Virus record (IMG/VR): IMGVR_UViG_3300007616_000009
Span: 1-26,211 of that record
DNA from: a virus
Length of the DNA: 26,211 nucleotides
Direction: 5' to 3' (one strand)
This document shows positions 8,938-24,762 of the stretch, one piece after another. The first letter of the stretch is position 1; each line of letters opens with the position of its first letter. Position numbers and translations under genes: made by a program. The notes below the pieces were generated by a model. That model made no database searches. It was not told where the DNA came from and saw only the letters and a program-made list of their open reading frames with translations.

Positions 8938-11900
8938 TTAGCGTCCGTTCTCTCGTCGCTCATTTTCAAGGACTTTGTCTCGGATGATTCGGCCGAATTT
9001 GTTGGCCATCCGATCATCGATAGAGCCCGATCCGCTGTTATCGACATTAACCTCGACGTTGGTCTCACTTCGTCTCGATGTGTTCGTTGTTCGGTTCGAT
9101 GCTGCTGCCTGTTCGTTTGTAATATCCTGTCCGGTTACTCGATCAAAGTTCGGCAACAGGTTCGAAATGATGTTACCGAAGAGATCGATTGAAATAGAGG
9201 AGCCATCAAGTCCGTTCACAATATCCCAGATAGACATCATTACCTGCTTCAGTAGTCGGAACTGCAAGATAATCGGGTTTAGCCCAAGCCCTGCATCTAA
9301 TGCGGATTTAACTTTATCCCAGTTCTTATAGAGATATGCCAGTGCGAGTCCAATGCCAACGATTACAGCACCGACTCCGGTTGAGATCAGTGCCACTTTT
9401 AGTGCACCGAGGCCAAGTATCAATGCTGTAACAGCTACTGTTGCAGCGCCAAAGGCTGCTGCTAGTGCTGTAATACCGGTTGCAACTGGTCCAACGAGAT
9501 TATGTATTTCGTACAGACCTTTTGCCATCAATGCAATTCCAACCAGTGCGCCTGTTAGTAGTGCTGCATTTAGCGAGATGACGGCTGTCACAGCACTCCA
9601 GATGGATGCTGTGAAGGCACCGACGGAACTGGTTGCGATTGACGTTGAGCCAGCGTATGCTATCATATTCCCGATGCCAGCTACAATTTGGCTATTGAGT
9701 ATGAGTGTTGCACCGGCTGCTATTAGAATGGTGCCAGCGATGAACTCAATCACTGATTGAACGATGTCCCCAACCAACCCCATTTCATTCAGATGACCAT
9801 TAACTGTTCCGATTACAGATCCGATCGTTTCGAAGAACGACCCAATTGTTTCGAGTAGTGGGGCCAGCAATCCAAGTGACTCAAGTACAAGTGCAATACC
9901 AGCTACAAGCAACAGTACACCACCAGCAAACATGATCGTGGATTTAAGGGCCATGACCATGTTCTGGTTACCCTTTTGTAGCGTCTGTGTAAATGCATCG
10001 TAGGCATTGTCTGCATCTTCAACCGCGTCCGTTAGGTGCTCAAGTGATTGAGCGACCAGATAGTTTATCTTAAACGCAAACTCTGCCACGGCAATCATTT
10101 TCATCAGTGTCATTGTAATTGCCAAAAATGCAATTACAGCGGTTGCAGTTACGTCGGATAGCATCCCAAACGCTTCGTATACCTCCAATGCAACGCTAAT
10201 AACTGATGCAAACACATTGATTGTAAATGCAAGAGGTGGCAATAGTTGCTCACCGATCCCAGCACCAACTCGGGTAATGACTGTGACAAGTTCGAGCAGT
10301 GCACTACCAAAGTCTGAAACTGTTGGACCAAGATTGCCGATAATCTTCCCCCAGTATGCCATGGCATCCGGGAGTTTATCGATGAACCAAACGAAGAAAT
10401 CCTCAAGCAGCGGAAGCGCGTTTTCGATGAGCACTGTCAGGCCTTCGATCATTGTGAGGCCACCAGTGCGATCGCTGAATCCGAGCACCGCAGCCCTGAG
10501 TTCGAGGAGGAAGCTCTGGACTTCTTCCATTTCGAGCAGTTCGGCTGCTGCTTCAGCAAACATGTGCACTAGTTCCACGATATCTCGGAGCACGGTGACA
10601 AAGATACCGGAGGCTCCGAGTCCACCAATTGTAACGTCTTGCAGTGGTGCGACAGCATCGATGATTGCTTCCTTGAAGCCCTGTGCTGTTGCTTCAACAG
10701 CCTCCATCGTGTTATTGATACCAGCGAACTGGTCTTCGAGATTCTGCAAGAATCCCATTGCACCGACCGCGACGAGGGCTCCGAATGCGCCAGCAACAGC
10801 AACGGCTGCCGATGCGAGCCCAAGGAAAAGCGTAATTAGTGGCCCAACAAAGGCTATCAATGCTGGAATTGTAATCAGTAGGTTAGCGAATCCGATATTG
10901 AACGGGCCAAGGTTGGCTGACACAGTTTTCAGTGCCGGAACAAGTGCGCTCAACGATCGGGCCAGATCCTCGACCTCATCGTCAAGATTTTCGACGGCTT
11001 GGCTGGCACCAACGGAACTTGTTGTCAGTGTATTGAGCCCGGCGACAACGAATCCAAGCGTCGATGTGGTCTGCACCGATGCTACTTGTAGCTCGGAAAG
11101 GGCCGTTCGTACGTCTTTGATTTCATTTTCAGCTTTATTAGCTGCTGAACTCATTGCAACAGATCCAACCGTGGCACCTGTTGCACCACCAATCGCTTCT
11201 AATCCGCCTGGAACCCGCCGTGATCGAAGATCGGGGCCTATTTCCTGCCCGATTGTTTCACCGCGCTCCGTGTCTGCACGAGCAATTGATCCAATTGCAG
11301 ATGTATCAAATTTACGCTCAAATTCAGCAAGTTCGCTGTTAACTCCATCTAAGTTATCATCTAATTCACTAAAGTCTATATCATCAAATGGACCGAACAC
11401 ATCTTCGAGTACACCAAGACCACCAGATCGGGGATCAACTTCAATAACTTCATTTACATCCATCCCCCCGGCTGGTCGTGAACGACGAACGGCCTCGCTT
11501 ACTTCAGACCCAAATTCTGCCGGTGTATATGTGATTCCCCGCTCTTCATCACTTTTAAATGGAACTGGTAAGTTTCCTCGATCCAAGTCAAGTGCTTCTT
11601 CAACTGCTTCAAGAGATTCTGAGAAATCAGATGCGACTGCATCTGCATTGGCAAGTTTTCGGGCCAACGACTCGATGTTAAGATCGCCTTCAACACTTCT
11701 AAATAGTCGTGATACAACACCAGGCGCTTGTCGTTGACCCCTGTCTGGATTTATGTCAGACTCATAGGAGAGCGCGTTGACAAGAGACTCACGGAACTGG
11801 TCGTTTTGTATGAGTGCCGGTTGTACTGAACGACGGCGGGCTTCAAATGGGTCAGTAATATCAACATCATCTGCTGCATCACCAACGCTTCCGAGTCGTT

Positions 11901-12381
11901 TTTCATATCCTTCGAGCAGGTTCATTGAATTCCGGAACTGAGATTCATCAGCAAATAGTGTGTCTCTGTCCGGAATAACATCATCGACTCTGTTATCAAA
12001 GTCGCCAAGCGAATTACGAATTATTTGATACTGTTCGTCAAGATCAGCGACATCTGTATTAAGATCAACCGTTGTTCCGTTAAGTGTTGCCATTGACGAC
12101 TGGAGGCCGTAGATAGCTCCAGCAGCACCGGCTGAATCATTTCGAACGTCTTCTAATTCGTTTTCGACGCCACGGAGTGACTCTTCCATATTTTCGGCCG
12201 AGCCAAAGGTGCCGGCGAATGCTTTGGCCAGGTCTTCTGTCGCACCTTCAGCGTTCCCGGCTGTTTCAGCAGCCTTTTCGAACGATCGGGCTGCACCGTC
12301 GATACCGTTCTCTATTCGCTCACCAACTTCGCCGGCATTGCTACTGATTGTAACATCGCCAAGTACGGAAAAGTCAACCAT
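8938..12381 (-). CDS. tape measure protein
   Basis: At 1147 residues it is the longest gene in the window and stands directly after the tail chaperone pair, the fixed location of tape measure proteins. Residues 1-480 are mostly helical, acidic and Ala/Glu/Ser-rich. Hydrophobic stretches, likely membrane-active after injection, occur at about 500-545, 737-768, 817-842, 880-905, 925-955 and 965-1018. The C-terminus (1085-1147) is polar and ends with a basic/acidic helix. In the family this protein sets tail length and leaves the tail ahead of the DNA. At about 1.5 angstrom per residue the length would allow a tail of at most about 170 nm. No lysozyme or peptidase motif is visible, which fits a host without peptidoglycan. 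Confidence 0.9.
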   Translation of the reverse strand: MVDFSVLGDVTISSNAGEVGERIENGIDGAARSFEKAAETAGNAEGATEDLAKAFAGTFGSAENMEESLRGVENELEDVRNDSAGAAGAIYGLQSSMATLNGTTVDLNTDVADLDEQYQIIRNSLGDFDNRVDDVIPDRDTLFADESQFRNSMNLLEGYEKRLGSVGDAADDVDITDPFEARRRSVQPALIQNDQFRESLVNALSYESDINPDRGQRQAPGVVSRLFRSVEGDLNIESLARKLANADAVASDFSESLEAVEEALDLDRGNLPVPFKSDEERGITYTPAEFGSEVSEAVRRSRPAGGMDVNEVIEVDPRSGGLGVLEDVFGPFDDIDFSELDDNLDGVNSELAEFERKFDTSAIGSIARADTERGETIGQEIGPDLRSRRVPGGLEAIGGATGATVGSVAMSSAANKAENEIKDVRTALSELQVASVQTTSTLGFVVAGLNTLTTSSVGASQAVENLDDEVEDLARSLSALVPALKTVSANLGPFNIGFANLLITIPALIAFVGPLITLFLGLASAAVAVAGAFGALVAVGAMGFLQNLEDQFAGINNTMEAVEATAQGFKEAIIDAVAPLQDVTIGGLGASGIFVTVLRDIVELVHMFAEAAAELLEMEEVQSFLLELRAAVLGFSDRTGGLTMIEGLTVLIENALPLLEDFFVWFIDKLPDAMAYWGKIIGNLGPTVSDFGSALLELVTVITRVGAGIGEQLLPPLAFTINVFASVISVALEVYEAFGMLSDVTATAVIAFLAITMTLMKMIAVAEFAFKINYLVAQSLEHLTDAVEDADNAYDAFTQTLQKGNQNMVMALKSTIMFAGGVLLLVAGIALVLESLGLLAPLLETIGSFFETIGSVIGTVNGHLNEMGLVGDIVQSVIEFIAGTILIAAGATLILNSQIVAGIGNMIAYAGSTSIATSSVGAFTASIWSAVTAVISLNAALLTGALVGIALMAKGLYEIHNLVGPVATGITALAAAFGAATVAVTALILGLGALKVALISTGVGAVIVGIGLALAYLYKNWDKVKSALDAGLGLNPIILQFRLLKQVMMSIWDIVNGLDGSSISIDLFGNIISNLLPNFDRVTGQDITNEQAAASNRTTNTSRRSETNVEVNVDNSGSGSIDDRMANKFGRIIRDKVLENERRENGR

Positions 12382-12406: not shown

Positions 12407-12823
12407 TTATGGGGTACGATTGAGTGCGCTTCGTCCAGCCACATTCGTCGGTGTCCCGGATGGTTGGGCACCAGACTGGGCTTGTTTCTGCATTCGTTTT
12501 GCTTTTTGCTGTTGCTTTCGACCTTCGTCTCCGCCCGATTCGCGGTAGATATCCGCGTGCAGGAGTGTTTTCACTTGGGCATCACTTAGCTCTTCGAGTC
12601 TGGCGTCACGTCGCTCGACAATCGTACCGTTTCCGTCGCACCGTTCGCACGTTTTGTCGAGCACACCGTTGATCTCGAATTCACGCCCATAGACGCTGGC
12701 TGATAGGCCAATTGACTCGGACCCGCTGCCATCGCATCTCGGGCATTCGGATTCGTGTTCAACCGTGAACTTGTATCCGGCCTGATGGAGCGTTAGGAGT
12801 TCTTGTCCGAGTCCACCTTCTGA
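12407..12823 (-). CDS. tail assembly chaperone, frameshifted extension (gpT-like) with zinc motifs
   Basis: This frame is open from 12898 down to the TAA at 12407 and lies in the -1 frame relative to the upstream chaperone gene. From 12823 it codes for 138 residues. Two CxxCxGxG motifs of DnaJ zinc-finger type are present: CPRCDGSG (cysteine codons at 12745 and 12736) and CERCDGNG (12649 and 12640). A basic, Gln-rich helix follows ('GRKQQQKAKRMQKQ'). There is no ATG, GTG or TTG in this frame between the last stop (12899-12901) and a GTG at 12664, which would cut off the first zinc motif. A -1 frameshift from the upstream gene is therefore the simplest way to make it, as in lambda G/GT. The joint product would have about 279 residues. 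Confidence 0.7.
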   Translation of the reverse strand, partial: SEGGLGQELLTLHQAGYKFTVEHESECPRCDGSGSESIGLSASVYGREFEINGVLDKTCERCDGNGTIVERRDARLEELSDAQVKTLLHADIYRESGGDEGRKQQQKAKRMQKQAQSGAQPSGTPTNVAGRSALNRTP

Positions 12824-13245
12824 AAATCTTTGATGGAGCCGGTCTCTTCGAAGGACATTTCGATGATCTCGGACCCGATTTCGAACAGTGTTTCGAAATC
12901 AAGCTCGGCCACGATCTCCTCAAAGTTGTGTCGTGTCAACTCTTCGTGCGCCATCGACTCGACACAGATGTTCTCGAAGGCGAGGATCGTGTCGCCGTTG
13001 ACATTGGAGAGCATGTTGCGCTCCTCAGCCATTTCCTGGGCTTCGTCCTCATCCTCGGCCTCCGATAGTGTCTGCAACATTTCTTCGGGAAGCCGATTGA
13101 TCTCGTCAAGGAGTACTTTCCGATTGACGACGTGTAGTTCAACATCCATCTGTGCCCCACTATCGTGGGTCAGGGTGTACTCACTGATGTCGTTGGTACT
13201 CTCGGTCACGCGCTTGTAGAATTCCATTGCGTCAACTTGTGTCAT
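12793..13245 (-). CDS. tail assembly chaperone (gpG-like)
   Basis: A 150-residue, very acidic, mainly helical protein between the tail tube and tape measure genes. In long-tailed phages this position is occupied by the chaperone that coats the tape measure while the tube is built. The N-terminal 'TQVDAMEFYKRVTES' and the middle beta segment 'MDVELHVVNRKVLLDEINRL' are followed by Glu-rich helices ('LSEAEDEDEAQEMAEERNML'). The gene overlaps the gpT-like frame at its 3' end, and a TTT codon preceded by T (12823-12826) allows -1 slippage near residue 141. It is preceded by a 93-base gap with hairpins. The chaperone role is inferred from order, size and the overlap. Confidence 0.75.
   Translation of the reverse strand: MTQVDAMEFYKRVTESTNDISEYTLTHDSGAQMDVELHVVNRKVLLDEINRLPEEMLQTLSEAEDEDEAQEMAEERNMLSNVNGDTILAFENICVESMAHEELTRHNFEEIVAELDFETLFEIGSEIIEMSFEETGSIKDFQKVDSDKNS
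12821..12828 (-). other. candidate -1 frameshift site
   Basis: In the zero frame the codons are GAT TTT CAG; slipping back one base on TTT keeps perfect pairing with the preceding T and gives TCA as the next codon. Of the codons available in the overlap (12793-12898) this is the only one I found that re-pairs fully after a -1 slip. It is not a classical X XXY YYZ heptamer, so the exact site is uncertain. Confidence 0.45.
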
Positions 13246-13322: not shown

Positions 13323-13340
13323 AACCGCGTTGGCGTGGTT
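13323..13340 (-). terminator. hairpin at the end of the tail tube gene
   Basis: On the minus strand AACCACG-CCAA-CGCGGTT forms a seven-pair stem with one mismatch, overlapping the TAA of the tube gene and followed by further T residues. With the second hairpin downstream it suggests attenuation after the sheath-tube message. Confidence 0.4.
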
Positions 13341-13812
13341 ACCGACTCGAAGCGCCGGTTACGCCACCAGAGGACACGTATGCGTCCTCACAATCGAAGT
13401 CCCACGATGACGAGGCAACATCGTCGGACGGTACGTCACGACTGAGGCCAGTTACCTGCACTTCTTCGAGCGTCCAAGTGCGGGGGAACCCGCCGGCTGC
13501 CCCCTCTTCGGGAGCCTCCTCTTTGACTGTCATGGTCACTCGCTTCGGTTCGCCAGCCTCGTGATAGTCACTCTCACCCGCACTATAGAACATGAGGTTT
13601 CGAATGACATCCTGGCCCCCGTCGTACTCGAACGAGCCGGAGTATCGAAGGCCAGTCGTTACGAGTGTGGGCTTCATTGACTGATCGGTCTGTACATCGG
13701 TCGACTGTGGGTCGATACTGAACGAGACGTTTGTGACGGCAATCTCCTGATCGCCGGCCTTGATAATGGCCTCTTGTCCAGTAATACGACTTGTGTGATC
13801 TGGTGCAACCAT
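13339..13812 (-). CDS. tail tube protein
   Basis: A 157-residue protein directly after the sheath gene, in the order seen in PBSX (XkdK-XkdM), P2 and T4. It is of the usual tube size and beta-rich, with 'ITGQEAIIKAGDQEIAVTNV' near the N-terminus, a loop region (35-55), 'GLRYSGSFEYDGGQDVIRNL' and a strand 'RTWTLEEVQVTGLSRDVPSD' near the C-terminus. This arrangement resembles the XkdM/gp19-like tube fold. Its product should form the inner tube through which DNA passes. It follows the sheath by seven bases, and its end overlaps a hairpin. The family assignment combines position with fold pattern. Confidence 0.8.
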   Translation of the reverse strand: MVAPDHTSRITGQEAIIKAGDQEIAVTNVSFSIDPQSTDVQTDQSMKPTLVTTGLRYSGSFEYDGGQDVIRNLMFYSAGESDYHEAGEPKRVTMTVKEEAPEEGAAGGFPRTWTLEEVQVTGLSRDVPSDDVASSSWDFDCEDAYVSSGGVTGASSR

Positions 13813-13819
13813 ATATTAG

Positions 13820-15139
13820 TTATGTGTTAATTGTGATAGAGACATCGATTCGCTTGGCAATGCCCTGCGGTGTGACACCGAGATCGATGCCGATTTCGTC
13901 TGAACTGACCTGATACACTTCAACGAAGTACTCGTTGGTGATCAGTCGATCATCGTTTAGACCCTTCAGTTCGGATCGGATTGTGTCCTCGACTGTGTCA
14001 CGAGTCCGTTCGTCGTTGATCTGGCCAATGGCCGAGTCACCGACTGTCTTGGCAATCAGGATCGTCTGATCGACAATCCGACGACGCCAGTAGTCTCGAA
14101 TCCAATCGGTCTCGTCAGAGGTGGACGTGTTGTCACCGATCGTAATCGACCCGCCCTGCGGTGGCTGTCGAATCGGAATGACGTTTGCGTCTCGAAGCTC
14201 GTTTGCTTCCGTCTTCGAGAGCCGATCGTCAAGGTTATCAGTCGTCAGGTTGTCGTTGTAGATCGAGCCACCGGGTCCGAGGGCAGCGCCAGCCATGTAT
14301 CCGGCCAGCGCCGGGGTAATGGTTTCGGTCGATAGCTCCTTGCGAGCCGGTGCGTGGAGGAACACGGCATCATTGTTGATGGAATCCGCATAGTTAGCCG
14401 TGTTATAGTCGGGCATCTCGCGCCCCTCTTGGTTGGCATTGGGCTCTGCTGCGGTAACACCCATCGCCAGCTTGTATTCGCCACGAAGGCCGTTCACTTC
14501 GGCCGAGAGGTCAGTTGCGATCGCCCCGCTCTCTTCGAGCGGAACGATAAGCCCTGTTTCCTCATCACCGATGGCCGTCGCTGCTTCAGCAAGGGCTGAC
14601 TCGTAGTCGTAGTGCGTATAGTCGACGGTGTATGTCGCATCGCCATCGTCTTCTATTTCGACAGCGCCCGTAATCGGATTGACATACGCCTCGCCCGCTG
14701 TTCCCTCATTCGTCGGCGGGCTATCGTACTTGAAGACGACCGTGTACTCTCCGGACACATCGCCCGTAATCGTGATCTCATCTGTATCCTCGACAATCGG
14801 CGCATTAGCGAGTGTGCCCGACACACCGCCCAGGTCTTCGTCAGTGACACTGATCTCGTCCAACATCACCCCGTAGAGGAAACTGATGTTAGCACCGTTG
14901 CCTCGGGCTTCCTGCATGCCATTCGCCAGTTCGGTATCGGCCCCGAACTTGCGTTCTGCGTCGAGGCTGGAATCGATCTGTGTCAGTGTGTTCGGATCGA
15001 CGGTATCCGTTGCCCCAGGATTACCGTCACCAATCAATACTACCTTCTGTTCTCGACCGATAGCAACGCCTGTGATGGCCCCACCAGCGGTCGTGATCTT
15101 TACGCCAGGAAAGTCGCCGTATGTTGTTGTACTTGCCAT
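13820..15139 (-). CDS. tail sheath protein
   Basis: A 439-residue protein that shows the virus has a contractile tail. The N-terminus ('FPGVKITTAGGAITGVAIG', then 'VLIGDGNPGAT') and the conserved C-terminal domain ('WRRRIVDQTILIAKTVGD', 'RSELKGLNDDRLITNEYFVE', 'GIAKRIDVSITINT') match the sheath family. The middle (about 100-215) carries extra beta-rich segments that would face outward. In the family the C-terminal domain forms the inner layer around the tube and contracts on infection. It starts six bases after the tail terminator-like gene. Confidence 0.93.
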   Translation of the reverse strand: MASTTTYGDFPGVKITTAGGAITGVAIGREQKVVLIGDGNPGATDTVDPNTLTQIDSSLDAERKFGADTELANGMQEARGNGANISFLYGVMLDEISVTDEDLGGVSGTLANAPIVEDTDEITITGDVSGEYTVVFKYDSPPTNEGTAGEAYVNPITGAVEIEDDGDATYTVDYTHYDYESALAEAATAIGDEETGLIVPLEESGAIATDLSAEVNGLRGEYKLAMGVTAAEPNANQEGREMPDYNTANYADSINNDAVFLHAPARKELSTETITPALAGYMAGAALGPGGSIYNDNLTTDNLDDRLSKTEANELRDANVIPIRQPPQGGSITIGDNTSTSDETDWIRDYWRRRIVDQTILIAKTVGDSAIGQINDERTRDTVEDTIRSELKGLNDDRLITNEYFVEVYQVSSDEIGIDLGVTPQGIAKRIDVSITINT

Positions 15140-18198: not shown

Positions 18199-18840
18199 TT
18201 AGTCGAGCACCGTCTCAACGTCGATGCCCATTTCGGCAAGCCCGATCTCGCCCGATCGAATCTTCTCGGCCTGTCGGTGCATCTTGCCGTCTTCGAGGTG
18301 CTCCGCAACTGCCTCTCGAAGTTCCTCTTCGGACATCTCGGACGGTTCGCCCTCCGAGAGTTCCTCTTTCGAAACCGAGCCACCGTCGGGTTCGGGGTCA
18401 GTCTCGGTCGCACCGAGTTCGCCAGTGACCGAGGCCTCGTCGTGCTCAGTCACCTTGTCGCGGAGTTCGAGGGGCGTGAATCGGTCCTGAAGCTCCTCGC
18501 TTTCGAACGGACTGTACTCGGCCAGTTCGTCCGCAAAGACGGTGCCGATCTCGTCCACGAGCCCGTTCAGTTCCTCGTACTCGTCCGTACCGAGCACAAC
18601 CGGCTCCTCGTGGGCCTGCAACTCGTCCAGGGCGTCCTCGTCAACGCTGTCGAGTTTCTCCTGATTCTCGGCCAGTTCGTCAATCGAACTGTTCACGTCT
18701 TCGAGCCGGGATGCGAGTTCGTCGGCATCCTCGGCCTTGCTTCGAAGCGATTCCACGTCGTCCTGTTCGATGACTACGGGCTCGGACATCTCTTCGATCT
18801 CCTCGTCCGTGAGCGCATCATATTCGATAGTGTCTGTCAT
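18199..18840 (-). CDS. nested scaffold protein, internal in-frame start
   Basis: Met754 of the protease protein begins a 213-residue segment that looks like a free scaffold: acidic, helical ('VESLRSKAEDADELASRLED', 'SSIDELAENQEKLDSVDEDA'), ending with a mixed-charge C-terminus ('GKMHRQAEKIRSGEIG') that could bind the capsid protein. The start region TACAATGACAGAC is identical over 13 bases to that of the major capsid gene, and the proteins begin MTDxI in both. The AT-rich stretch before it (GATATCACTACA) stands out from the surrounding coding DNA and resembles gene junctions in this window. Lambda C/Nu3 is the known precedent for a nested scaffold. Internal initiation is inferred. Confidence 0.6.
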   Translation of the reverse strand: MTDTIEYDALTDEEIEEMSEPVVIEQDDVESLRSKAEDADELASRLEDVNSSIDELAENQEKLDSVDEDALDELQAHEEPVVLGTDEYEELNGLVDEIGTVFADELAEYSPFESEELQDRFTPLELRDKVTEHDEASVTGELGATETDPEPDGGSVSKEELSEGEPSEMSEEELREAVAEHLEDGKMHRQAEKIRSGEIGLAEMGIDVETVLD

Positions 18841-21099
18841 TGTAGTGATATCGGTTGTATCAGAAGTGTTGCCCACCGTACTCGACCCAGTTCGGGCGTC
18901 ATTGTCCAGTGATGCAACCTGCAAGTTCGGCTGCGATGTCGCAGCCATCGATTCCCCGGCAACCGGTTCATCGAATTCGTCTTCAGCCCACGCGTTGATC
19001 TTCGACTGCAACTCGTCGGCCATGTCGTCGGAAATGCCGTCCACTTGGCCAGCCATCTGGTGGGCCGAGTCGAGTCCGTCGAGACTCAGGTCCCCGTTCG
19101 GGAACACAACTGGCAGGGCCAGATCGCCGTAGTTTTCCGGAGGCCACTCGCCGGTTTTCGAGACAATGAAGTGATCATCGATCTCGGACATGTTGTCCGT
19201 GTCAAAGTCGGACATGGCCGGCTTGTCCCATTCACTGTCGGCGTCCGTGCCGTCATACTCAGGCGTGTGCCATGTGGCTTCCAACTCGGCCGTCGATCCG
19301 GTTCGAACGGCGCTGGCTGACATTGACTCGACCTCGTGTAGTGGCTTCTGCATCGTGTCGCCAGTCTTAGTGAACTGGCCATCTTCTTTGTCGATGGCAT
19401 CGATTTCGACCATGAGCGTGCCATCGTCGGTTTCGAAGCCAGCAATGGTGCCCATGTTACCATCCCACATTACGGTCCCATTGATATCGAGGCCGTTGAT
19501 GGTTGCCAATTCAGCGTCGTGTCGGTCAGCATACTGTGCCATCTCGTCCTCGTGCATGCTCATATCGGCTTTCGACATGAGCGTCTGCATCGGCTTGATA
19601 TCGGAATAGCCGGCCGTGATGGTGAAGCCAGTCGACTCCATCGAGCCATCATCGAGGCCCATAATCTCGACCATCACGATGTTCTTTGCCTCGTCAACGT
19701 GGACGATCTTTCCGAAGAGATCCGGCTCGACCTGCCATCGAACCAGGTCGCCTTCGTCCCACTCGGGCGCATCGCCCATCATCGACTTCGGCATGTCGGT
19801 TCGATCGGGCATGTTTGTCATGTCTGAATCGTCTGTGCGTCGTGCAAGACCGTTTTCTTCTGCCATTTCGTCCGGCACATCCGGAATCGAATCGAACGGA
19901 TTGTACGCCCAGTTGAGCAGGCTAATGGCCCACTTGCTCGGGCACCCCGACGGTCCATCTCTGGGATCATCGGGCTCGTTCTCTTCGTCGGACATCCGGC
20001 TGATGAACGAGATCGTCCGTTTCGCATCCTCGATCTCGTCCGATCCCCACTCGGACTTGTTCGTGTCGAGTAGGTGCATATTGCGATCGATAACCGCTTC
20101 CGGATCGACAGAGGCCTTATTTGCACACGGATGATCGGCCCATCGTTCGAGATCACTGGCCGACATGTTGACGTGCTCGGACCACTCGCTGTAGACCGAA
20201 TCGAGATCGTCTTCGTCGCCTTCAAGCTCGGCTGCTTCGGCATCGATCGCAGCCTTGAATCGGTTTTCATCGTGGTCCCACATCGAAATCGAGTCTTCCT
20301 TGTGGGCCACCATCGTATCCGTGAATTCGCCCGATTCTGGATCGTAGTTCTCGATCAGATAGACCGTGCTATCACCAGCACAAATTTCCTGATCACCGTC
20401 GATCTCGTCGGAATAGCAACCGTCGGATTTCATCCCGCGCACTTTGCCGTGCCAGGTACCACCGGACGAATCGCCTTTGACCCAGTCTCCCTCGCTGTAT
20501 TCAGCGAGTTGGGCCGTCGATCGTTCGACACCAGATTCGAGCGTTGCGACAGCACCAGATTTCGGCCCGGCTGCCATAGCAACAGCGCCCGACGTGTCGA
20601 GGCCACCGATCTCCGCTGTGTTCGACGGTGAGGCCCCTTGCGAGACGACCGACAGATTGTCGAAGAGGATCGATGTGACACGCTTCGCACCGGACTCGGT
20701 CTCTTCGAGTTCCTCGACCGGGTCGTGGTATGCTCTGGCACTTACTTCCTGAATGCCAGCAGCAACGTCTTTGGCCAACTGTTCGTAGTGTGAAGCGATC
20801 TCGGCTTCGTATCGGACCCCAACGCCCTCATCGTAGAAGGCCTTCGTGACGGTTCCGACACGACCGTCGCTGTTGTTCTGGTGATCGCGGACGAGCGGTT
20901 TGCCTTGCAACGACGACGCAGCTTGCTTCAGTTCAGCAGCCGGCCACTGCTTTTTGATACCACTGTTGCCGACTGTTACATCGCCAGCACCGAGGGCAAT
21001 CCCACTAATCGTGTACTTGCCATCGGAATCCAATTCGGAGTTCAGTTCAGCAGTACCGACGCCGGCCTGCGAAACACTCCGAGTCGCTGCGTCACTCAT
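18199..21099 (-). CDS. prohead maturation protease fused to SH3/tudor-like repeats and a scaffold
   Basis: A 966-residue protein, several times longer than a usual prohead protease. Residues 20-170 resemble the HK97/U35-type serine protease, with likely catalytic His73 (in PLVRDHQNN) and Ser120 (in EVSARAYHD), then 'LSVVSQGASPSNTAEIGG', the family's end motif. Three SH3/tudor-like segments follow at about 200-275, 445-505 and 535-595, each with a GD/WV or W start and a glycine before a hydrophobic strand. Between them (295-405) is a helical region ending 'GCPSKWAISLLNWAYNPFD'. Residues 655-712 ('GDLALPVVFPNGDLSLDGLD') resemble a small domain found in other protease polyproteins. Residues 754-966 are a helical, very acidic scaffold. 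The protease should digest the scaffold during maturation. Confidence 0.8.
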   Translation of the reverse strand: MSDAATRSVSQAGVGTAELNSELDSDGKYTISGIALGAGDVTVGNSGIKKQWPAAELKQAASSLQGKPLVRDHQNNSDGRVGTVTKAFYDEGVGVRYEAEIASHYEQLAKDVAAGIQEVSARAYHDPVEELEETESGAKRVTSILFDNLSVVSQGASPSNTAEIGGLDTSGAVAMAAGPKSGAVATLESGVERSTAQLAEYSEGDWVKGDSSGGTWHGKVRGMKSDGCYSDEIDGDQEICAGDSTVYLIENYDPESGEFTDTMVAHKEDSISMWDHDENRFKAAIDAEAAELEGDEDDLDSVYSEWSEHVNMSASDLERWADHPCANKASVDPEAVIDRNMHLLDTNKSEWGSDEIEDAKRTISFISRMSDEENEPDDPRDGPSGCPSKWAISLLNWAYNPFDSIPDVPDEMAEENGLARRTDDSDMTNMPDRTDMPKSMMGDAPEWDEGDLVRWQVEPDLFGKIVHVDEAKNIVMVEIMGLDDGSMESTGFTITAGYSDIKPMQTLMSKADMSMHEDEMAQYADRHDAELATINGLDINGTVMWDGNMGTIAGFETDDGTLMVEIDAIDKEDGQFTKTGDTMQKPLHEVESMSASAVRTGSTAELEATWHTPEYDGTDADSEWDKPAMSDFDTDNMSEIDDHFIVSKTGEWPPENYGDLALPVVFPNGDLSLDGLDSAHQMAGQVDGISDDMADELQSKINAWAEDEFDEPVAGESMAATSQPNLQVASLDNDARTGSSTVGNTSDTTDITTMTDTIEYDALTDEEIEEMSEPVVIEQDDVESLRSKAEDADELASRLEDVNSSIDELAENQEKLDSVDEDALDELQAHEEPVVLGTDEYEELNGLVDEIGTVFADELAEYSPFESEELQDRFTPLELRDKVTEHDEASVTGELGATETDPEPDGGSVSKEELSEGEPSEMSEEELREAVAEHLEDGKMHRQAEKIRSGEIGLAEMGIDVETVLD

Positions 21100-21886: not shown

Positions 21887-22480
21887 TTAGAATCGGTTTC
21901 TCCATCTTTCGGTGCCTAAGATTTCGTCCTTGAAGCTGCTGCACAGGCGTCGAGAGCCGATTTCTGACATACATCCTCTCCAAGTCGCCCCCATTTGTGT
22001 CCACGCGTCCAATGCGATCAAGCGAGCCGGTTTGTCTGATTTACGCCAACTCGGGGGCCAATTGTCAAAGCCAACTCCCGGATCATCAACACCGGGTACG
22101 TTGAGCAATTCCGATACGGATTTGTGATGCAGTTCAGCAACACGCCCATCGTTGAGCATTTTATAACTGGCTGCCATTTCAGCATCATCGAGGTCTTCTT
22201 CAGGATTATCGGGCATCTCGTTTTCGTCTCCGATAACGGTCTCCCGATCTACGGCCGTAATTTCATCTGCGGTATATGGCTTTGAGCCACCGCTAACTCG
22301 TGCCACAACATAGACATCATCACCTTCAGAACCAACTGTCTCCGTTTTGTCGTCACCAGTCGGCCACTCCATCGGGCCGGACATAGCAGCCACGATGGTC
22401 CCGTACTGCCCATCATCGTATTCGACCCACTGTCCCTCTTCAAGCGACTGTAGTTGTGCGACGTATCGTGCGCGTTTCAT
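21887..22480 (-). CDS. SH3/tudor-like protein linked to the portal gene
   Basis: A 197-residue protein whose start overlaps the portal stop as ATGA. Residues 10-80 form a tudor/SH3-like segment: 'LEEGQWVEYDDGQYGTIVAA', a long acidic loop, 'DVYVVARVSGGSKPYTADEI'. Similar segments occur three times in the maturation protease protein. The C-terminus (about 155-197) carries 'TWRGCMSEIGSRRLCSSFKD' and ends near 'GTERWR', a Cys-x(10)-Cys pattern followed by Lys-Asp and Trp-Arg. The translation coupling to portal-MuF and shared SH3-like modules suggest an internal head protein or a processed head component. No catalytic motif is seen. Confidence 0.6.
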   Translation of the reverse strand: MKRARYVAQLQSLEEGQWVEYDDGQYGTIVAAMSGPMEWPTGDDKTETVGSEGDDVYVVARVSGGSKPYTADEITAVDRETVIGDENEMPDNPEEDLDDAEMAASYKMLNDGRVAELHHKSVSELLNVPGVDDPGVGFDNWPPSWRKSDKPARLIALDAWTQMGATWRGCMSEIGSRRLCSSFKDEILGTERWRNRF

Positions 22481-24762
22481 GCTGAATCAGAATCAAGTTG
22501 TGTCACCGGAACGATTTCTGTCCGGCAGTTAAAGTGGAACGGGGGAACGGTTGGCAAGGGATCGAAGCCATCGAAGAGCATGTCATCCGGCACATCAGCT
22601 TGGAACTGTTCACCAAGCGTCTGATCGGCATCGAACAGGGCCACTGATCCATCACCATCGTCACAGGTCAACTCCTTGCACAACGGCGTTGTGTTCGGAT
22701 TACAGGGATTGATCAGTTCGACACCAATGATCTCGTCGTGCCGATCGTATTCGGCCATTTTGAGGGCATTGACGCCACTCATGATCTCGATCCGAGCCAT
22801 TACATCGGCCCGCTCTCGAAGATCGTCGTTGTCAAAGGACTCGGCCAATCGTTCACCGACGACGGCCGGCGACTCATCGTGTTGGACAGCTTGCGTCGTG
22901 TTAACACGCGCAAATTCGTCCATATCACCGACCACGTTCTCGAACGAGTCGGCCATTGCATCGGACAGGAATCGAGCCCGCTGTCGATGCCGGGCACCCA
23001 TATCGAGTTCGATCTGTGGCGAATGATTTGGTTGCGACAGTGTATCGAGTGTTGCTTCGATAGCTCGCTCGAAGTGGTCTCGGGAGCGCGGATCAATGCG
23101 AGCGTCACCAGTGGCCTCAGAGACGGCCCGAGCGATCGCTCCATCGAGTTCGTCACTGTTGCGGAGTGATCGGTCGGCCGTGTCCTCGAACACGCTCACA
23201 AGCTGCTCACGGACGTTCACGAGTTCCTCGTAGAGCAAGTCGGATAGATCGGATTCGATATCACGCGTGCTCACGAGTCGCGGATCACTCAGTTCTCCGA
23301 CTGTTCCAGCCAATTCCGCGGTTCCGGGTTCTGTAGTGACGCGAAAGGAGTTATCAACTGACACAGTGCCAGTGTTTTCTGCACTCGATGAGCTTGAGTT
23401 AGCGTCAGATTCTGCTTGTCGTTCTTCTTCAACGTCATCCGGATCAGTGACGATATCATCGCTGCTGATAGCCGTAATGGGCTGCTCTTGCTCCCCATTC
23501 GTGGCTTCACTTGTGTAGCGAATGATGCTGCCTTCAACGTCTTCAGGTGCCACTTCACCGTTCGGTCGGCCCAGATGGAGTTCCACGCTATCGGCCCCAT
23601 CGAGGCCATAATCTGTTGCGACATCGCGGAGGTACGGCGTGAACAGTTGCTCGACTTCCCGACGAGTCTTCTTCACTTCTTTAATGAACGTCCGCTGCTG
23701 GGATTGGGCCACAGCCGGCGCGACGTTCTGGGCGAACCCGCCAGTTGCATACACCGGACCAGGAAGGCCGGACATGATCATTGAAATGTCGAAGTTGAGT
23801 GTGTCCTGAATGTCAGCCGTGTCGCCGGCAAACTCCTCGACGCTCACGTCGCCGGCCACTGCTTGCATCATTCCAGGACTGATCTGACCATCCTCGTAGG
23901 CCGAGATAAAGTTCTGCACTTCCTCTTCATTCCACGGGTTGTCTTCGTCGCCCAACTGAAAGATGATCTGGGGCCACGCTTTGAACTTGACAGCATCGTC
24001 GTTGTCCTGCAACTTTTCGAGCAGTCCTTCGGCACGACGGGCACTCGATGCGATCCGAGACGTGCCTCGTGGCTCCCCGATCTCGGCGTCTCGGGTCCAT
24101 TTGATGACTTGATCGCGTGTGTACACGACCTCGTTCGTCTGTGCCCATTGGGGCTTCAGTTCATCGAACTGTACGTAGGCCCCCATTTCACCATCATCAG
24201 TGAGCGGGGGTTGATCTCGGGACTGATCGATATCCGGATTGAAGGCCTCAGCTTCCGAGTCATCTGGTGCCGGAAGCATGGCCTTCCCAGGCTTCGTGTA
24301 GATTGTAATCGTATCGTTCTGCAACGGATACAGGGCCTGGTTTCGGTTTTCACTATCCGTGACTTTCTCAAGGAATACCGTGCCCTTGATCTCCCGTTCG
24401 CGGACCATTGACTCGATCAGTCGTGAGGCATTCACGTCCGTTTCCGTATTGATAATTGCGACGTTTCGGAAGTACTCAGTGAGTTGCTCTGCTGTCTCTT
24501 CGTTGTCACAGGTGATATACCAGCCGGGCTCAACGACTTCCGAAGAAAAGTTATCGATTGCCGATTTGATCGGGCCGACATTCTCGTAGAGCTTGCGATA
24601 AAAGTTAAGATCGTCTCGGGGCGGATCGTGTTCGAGTGCTCCGCCACGAATGAGGCCAGACGATCGCTCTTCACCCTGATAGCCTTCAGGTTCCGGCTCC
24701 TCATCTCTGGAGCCATCAATGAGTTCCGCAATCGACTGGCGTAAATTATCAAATCGGCCCAT
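22477..24762 (-). CDS. portal protein fused to a MuF-type head morphogenesis domain
   Basis: A 761-residue protein. Residues about 30-430 match the portal family: 'DLNFYRKLYENVGPIKSAID', 'SSEVVEPGWYITC', 'IKGTVFLEKVTD', a middle with 'QWAQTNEVVYTRDQVIKWTR' and the stem-like 'SMIMSGLPGPVYATGGFAQN' plus helix 'QQRTFIKEVKKTRREVEQLF'. A Ser/Glu-rich linker (about 440-490) leads to a helical region and a C-terminal MuF-type domain with 'ARIEIMSGVNALKMAEYDR', 'NPCNPNTTPLCKEL' and 'PPFHFNCRTEIVPV' (about 738-752), where the usual form is PPxHxNCR. Portal and MuF are separate genes in many phages. A TATA-type promoter lies about 33 bases upstream of the ATG. Confidence 0.88.
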   Translation of the reverse strand: MGRFDNLRQSIAELIDGSRDEEPEPEGYQGEERSSGLIRGGALEHDPPRDDLNFYRKLYENVGPIKSAIDNFSSEVVEPGWYITCDNEETAEQLTEYFRNVAIINTETDVNASRLIESMVREREIKGTVFLEKVTDSENRNQALYPLQNDTITIYTKPGKAMLPAPDDSEAEAFNPDIDQSRDQPPLTDDGEMGAYVQFDELKPQWAQTNEVVYTRDQVIKWTRDAEIGEPRGTSRIASSARRAEGLLEKLQDNDDAVKFKAWPQIIFQLGDEDNPWNEEEVQNFISAYEDGQISPGMMQAVAGDVSVEEFAGDTADIQDTLNFDISMIMSGLPGPVYATGGFAQNVAPAVAQSQQRTFIKEVKKTRREVEQLFTPYLRDVATDYGLDGADSVELHLGRPNGEVAPEDVEGSIIRYTSEATNGEQEQPITAISSDDIVTDPDDVEEERQAESDANSSSSSAENTGTVSVDNSFRVTTEPGTAELAGTVGELSDPRLVSTRDIESDLSDLLYEELVNVREQLVSVFEDTADRSLRNSDELDGAIARAVSEATGDARIDPRSRDHFERAIEATLDTLSQPNHSPQIELDMGARHRQRARFLSDAMADSFENVVGDMDEFARVNTTQAVQHDESPAVVGERLAESFDNDDLRERADVMARIEIMSGVNALKMAEYDRHDEIIGVELINPCNPNTTPLCKELTCDDGDGSVALFDADQTLGEQFQADVPDDMLFDGFDPLPTVPPFHFNCRTEIVPVTQLDSDSA

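Follow-up and report, generated by a model that had tools for sequence, protein, structure and literature searches.

The tail module and its relatives

The stretch of DNA analysed here (the window) is an IMG/VR virus record of 26,211 bases whose tail module is encoded on the minus strand. It is a fragment of a myovirus of haloarchaea, a relative of Halogranum tailed virus 1 (HGTV-1). The sheath protein of the contractile tail (13820..15139, minus strand) matches phrog_10244 with an E-value of 1.7e-101 and shares 43% identity with the HGTV-1 sheath. It is followed by a probable tail tube protein (13339..13812, minus strand), which shows weak tail matches to phrog_12452 and phrog_365 and occupies the same position as the HGTV-1 gene after the sheath. 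Directly downstream lies an open reading frame of 150 amino acids (12793..13245, minus strand), called G hereafter, which codes for a tail assembly chaperone-like protein, is 42% identical to HGTV-1 gp19 and is conserved in 26 distinct genes. The end of G, read as the 0 frame, is overlapped by a -1 frame extension, T (12407..12826, minus strand), which codes for 138 residues after the slip codon and ends with a TAA stop. The tape measure gene (8938..12381, minus strand), recognized by phrog_1272, phrog_20644 and other families of tail length tape measure proteins, is directly downstream of T. The pair sits between tube and tape measure, an arrangement (tube-G-T-tape measure) also seen in known G/GT pairs.

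Two further minus-strand genes of the window were inspected, and neither product has a Pfam match at 0.001. The first (18199-21099), upstream of the major capsid gene, encodes a protein of 966 residues; by eye its N-terminus looks like a prohead protease, and its acidic C-terminal part could be a scaffold. The second (22477-24762) encodes a portal-like protein of 761 residues whose C-terminal part, from our impression of the sequence, may be MuF-like.

No known chaperone family gave a significant sequence match to G. When its predicted fold (pLDDT 71) was compared with 350,542 PDB chains, the HK97 tail assembly chaperone 2ob9 ranked second and fourth, with E-values of 0.47 and 0.91, so that this likeness is only a hint. 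EndoA, which appeared as a weak match to PDB sequence profiles, was unconvincing as a relative of G. The position and size of G and T and the shift between them fit the lambda G/GT pair, and a chaperone function is proposed on this basis. By analogy with lambda gpG and gpGT, G would be expected to coat the tape measure protein, and the T part to bring in tail tube subunits.

To collect relatives, viral contigs were searched by alignment-based scans. These yielded 31 loci, among which 26 G genes are distinct, at identities down to ~40%, from IMG/VR contigs and from the isolate HGTV-1. One of these loci (L066) is cut by the end of its contig. Two scans of sequenced-genome contigs found no relative. 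The loci L010-L012 and L014 were set aside as chance matches to the pattern GAYTTTCA...GQEL, which also recovered members of the family.

The T_TTT_C site at the end of G

The sequence-only reading of this DNA proposed that slippage at GAT TTT CAG joins the two frames, and suggested looking for TTTTC in related viruses. In the window, GAT TTT occupies 12828-12823, its Phe being residue 141 of G, and the T_TTT_C site formed by the end of codons 140-141 and the following base lies at 12822..12826 on the minus strand. The same site was found in frame in all 26 distinct G genes, 15-30 nt upstream of the G stop.

We then asked how strictly these bases are kept, using a codon alignment of 25 of the 26 G genes with 141 gap-free codon columns. 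The third base never varies in only three of the 141 columns, which are one forced Met ATG, codon 140 and codon 141. Codon 140 is GAT in 18 genes and GGT in 7, which means that the residue switches between Asp and Gly while the final T is constant, and codon 141 is TTT throughout. The four other invariant Phe columns of G are all mixed TTC/TTT, 32% of the remaining Phe codons in the 26 genes are TTT, and several of these genes have no TTT elsewhere in G. The Ser codon of the T frame places a further constraint on the third T of codon 141. HGTV-1 and L039 each carry a stop of the -1 frame directly upstream of the site (TAAGGATTTTC, TAGGGATTTTC); entry into the -1 frame is thus restricted to the slip site or the few codons after it.

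In the scheme that we propose, most ribosomes would read G to its stop, while a minority, with tRNA-Phe on the UUU of GRU_UUU_C, would slip back by one base and re-pair with the overlapping UUU. UCA (Ser) would then be read into T, and the product, GT, would be a protein of ~279 residues (141 + 138), the length that had been predicted. Minimal -1 sites have the form Z_ZZN (PMC5009743), which U_UUU fits. A frameshift prediction tool for phages reports two non-canonical motif classes, twofour and twoonefour (PMC10885494), which judging from these names would fit GGTTTT and GGATTTT.

The same fusion could also be made by another route, namely through tandem slippage involving P-site GAU or GGU, through a shift of +2, or through slippage of RNA polymerase on the T run. 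A-site, P-site and tandem slippage all yield the same protein, and one member, L047, does carry the canonical heptamer G_GGT_TTT. This heptamer is found in L047 only, and the window site, A_GAT_TTT, is not a canonical X_XXY_YYZ heptamer. Across the family, codon 140 together with the base that precedes it reads A_GAT, G_GAT, C_GGT or A_GGT; since both vary, tandem re-pairing in the P site is not conserved, and T_TTT_C alone is kept. A run of four Ts also seems short for transcriptional slippage. We therefore regard these other routes as improbable, and -1 slippage of a single tRNA-Phe on U_UUU as the very likely way in which G and GT would be expressed, as judged from the conservation of the site.

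RNA signals around the site were also sought. No common RNA structure was found downstream of it among 19 members outside the four-sequence zinc set. For the four closest zinc-bearing sequences, RNAalifold gives a weak candidate stem (12784..12817, minus strand) that starts 4 nt after TTTTC, with 12817-12812 pairing to 12789-12784 and no compensatory changes. Upstream of the site, at -20 to -7, pairing with the anti-Shine-Dalgarno sequence is below -4 kcal/mol in ~67% of the members, the mean being ~-5, compared with -1.5 for control segments from these genes; in the window this pairing is weak. The stretch concerned precedes the slip TTT by ~20 to 7 nt, is equivalent to 12845-12832 of the window and is exemplified by L020:4395-4408. 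Either an internal Shine-Dalgarno stimulator or a simple codon constraint could account for it, conserved Glu and Gly codons being a confounding factor.

The T frame and its putative zinc knuckles

In the window, the -1 frame is open from 12898 to its stop at 12409-12407, and its first ATG, GTG or TTG is the GTG at 12664, in agreement with the coordinates of the earlier reading. The frame is kept in every complete relative, where it always extends beyond the G stop and terminates close by the following gene, mostly just before an ATG. Beyond the G stop, T shows a dN/dS of ~0.05-0.15 in close pairs, that is, strong purifying selection. Over the four codons that follow TTT, amino acid identity averages 64% when they are read in the -1 frame, compared with 30% for frame 0 and 23% for +1, indicating that the conserved T residues FS(R/E)T.(L/I)GQ begin at the slip site itself. 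This segment, which lies upstream of or at the G stop, is more conserved than the G tail that it overlaps. The retention of the T frame in the relatives, the selection on it and the invariance of the slip bases together argue that this frame is not there by chance. A fold search with the predicted model of T (mean pLDDT 63) gave no meaningful match, and a comparison of T with PDB sequence profiles gave no match.

T could alternatively be a separate gene with its own start, for instance the GTG at 12664, or a non-standard codon close to the G stop and used by termination-reinitiation. T does overlap the G stop, as coupled genes do, and HGTV-1 gp20 has been annotated separately from a TTG located 11 nt after the start of the G stop codon. 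A TTG at this place is shared by L022 and L047, the others having no start so close, and in most relatives the first ATG, GTG or TTG is met far inside T or close to its end. A gene with such starts would moreover leave the conservation of FS(R/E)T.(L/I)GQ and the invariant slip bases to be accounted for, and we consider a separately initiated T very unlikely. A further reading would be that the gene is decayed or that sequencing or assembly went wrong, the window being a metagenome contig; we reject it, since 26 distinct sequences show the same arrangement, the isolate genome HGTV-1 among them.

The T of the window also contains two cysteine knuckles, CPRCDGSG (12722..12745, minus strand) and CERCDGNG (12626..12649, minus strand). 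As had been pointed out, the first knuckle precedes the GTG at 12664 and the second follows it. Two such CxxCxGxG knuckles in the T hairpin were found in five forms only (the window, L004, L005, L018 and L019), which form one subclade, and none of these five has an ATG, GTG or TTG upstream of the first knuckle. The two checks put forward in the earlier reading, for a start ahead of CPRC in relatives and for conservation of the -1 frame, thus both supported it. HGTV-1 and most relatives have at this position a short hairpin without cysteines. The zinc pair, being limited to one subclade, is thus an accessory insertion into T and not part of the basic mechanism.

The earlier reading described this pair as DnaJ-type, which holds for the presence of the two knuckles and not for membership of the DnaJ cysteine-rich domain family (PF00684). 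DnaJ shares the CxxCxGxG knuckles and has four of them, whereas T of the window has two, and the weak Pfam match stays below the cut-off of 32.7 bits (21.7 bits for the window, 21-23 bits overall). From its motif, the CxxCxGxG...CxxCxGxG module probably binds one zinc ion, and its gain in the T hairpin would stiffen T or modify its contact with the tube. In L067 (4429-4722) and L068, T carries a different cysteine-containing insert (CDCFNSDAPPNEECPHPK) at the same hairpin position, which may be an independent metal site. The family shows where tail chaperones accept new domains.

The presence of T_TTT_C in all 26 genes, the invariant slip bases, the selection on T and the lack of a start before the first knuckle make expression of G and GT by -1 slippage very likely. 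From these comparative data we conclude with high confidence that the locus encodes the putative G/GT tail chaperone pair of an HGTV-1-like haloarchaeal myovirus, made by -1 slippage.

Comparison with known frameshifting systems

According to a 2021 review, programmed -1 frameshifting in archaea comprises one demonstrated case, the Saccharolobus fucosidase, and a few halovirus reports (PMC8211752). Among the latter, a -1 shift of G/GT has been reported in HVTV-1 and HCTV-1/2/5 and a +1 shift in HSTV-2 (PMC5009743, PMC8211752). In archaeal tailed viruses, where the earlier reading held that it deserves attention, a G/GT shift is not new in itself; for HGTV-1 and its family, no shift is reported in the papers examined. 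Within this literature, what is new here is the proposed shift of the HGTV-1 group, which the annotation lacks, a slip site other than a canonical heptamer and a two-knuckle zinc insert confined to one subclade, the kind of event being already known. T_TTT_C is a compact and strongly conserved site in 26 distinct sequences, one of them from an isolate (HGTV-1), and this makes archaeal frameshifting directly testable with a short cassette.

The closest system is that of HGTV-1 itself (Halomagnusviridae), which shares with the window a homologous G, a T that is 33% identical over aligned residues, the same gene order and the same GATTTTC. It differs in that gp19 and gp20 are annotated in GenBank as two separate hypothetical genes, gp20 beginning at a TTG, and in that it lacks the zinc module. 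This TTG start of gp20 (L006:4456-4662) lies inside the T frame and drops the conserved segment FSRTGLGQE. gp20 is probably misannotated, and gp19 and gp20 should be G and GT. The annotation of these two genes and of their relatives would be corrected accordingly, the extension being otherwise lost or truncated.

In HVTV-1 (gp129/gp130) and, by published description, in HCTV-1/2/5, an archaeal tail chaperone also undergoes a -1 shift before the tape measure gene. The C-terminal helix of the HVTV-1 T shows a weak profile similarity to that of the window T. HVTV-1 has GGGAAAG in the overlap, unlike the T_TTT_C described here, and its G is not detectably related. Phage lambda infects a bacterial host, unlike the haloarchaeal virus studied here; it slips on the canonical GGGAAAG, and we know of no zinc pair in its T. 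The lambda gpG/gpGT pair has the same gene order and the same rare -1 extension of an assembly chaperone (PMC5009743).

Finally, HSTV-2 and the HF1 group (Hafunaviridae) are, like the virus studied here, haloarchaeal myoviruses whose shift involves a UUU_C codon for Phe towards the end of G, the site of the HF1 group being TTT-CGC (PMC7230728). They differ in shifting by +1 (UUU to UUC), in having a base other than T ahead of this codon and in showing no clear sequence relation in G or T. Their sites read TCC TTT CGC in HSTV-2 (L029:15470-15520) and AAG TTT CGC in HRTV-8 (L031:7220-7270). The Hafunaviridae +1 shift and the -1 shift of the HGTV-1 group may rely on one and the same tRNA-Phe, the direction being set by the base ahead of the codon. 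We tentatively put forward, as a possibility about which we remain rather doubtful, a wider model in which the whole family would depend on one-tRNA -1 slippage at U_UUU_C, with neither a tandem heptamer nor a conserved structure downstream, as a mirror image of the Hafunaviridae +1 shift on UUU_C, in which the one base ahead of the Phe codon would decide the direction taken by haloarchaeal ribosomes, and in which the zinc module would be a metal-stabilised extension.
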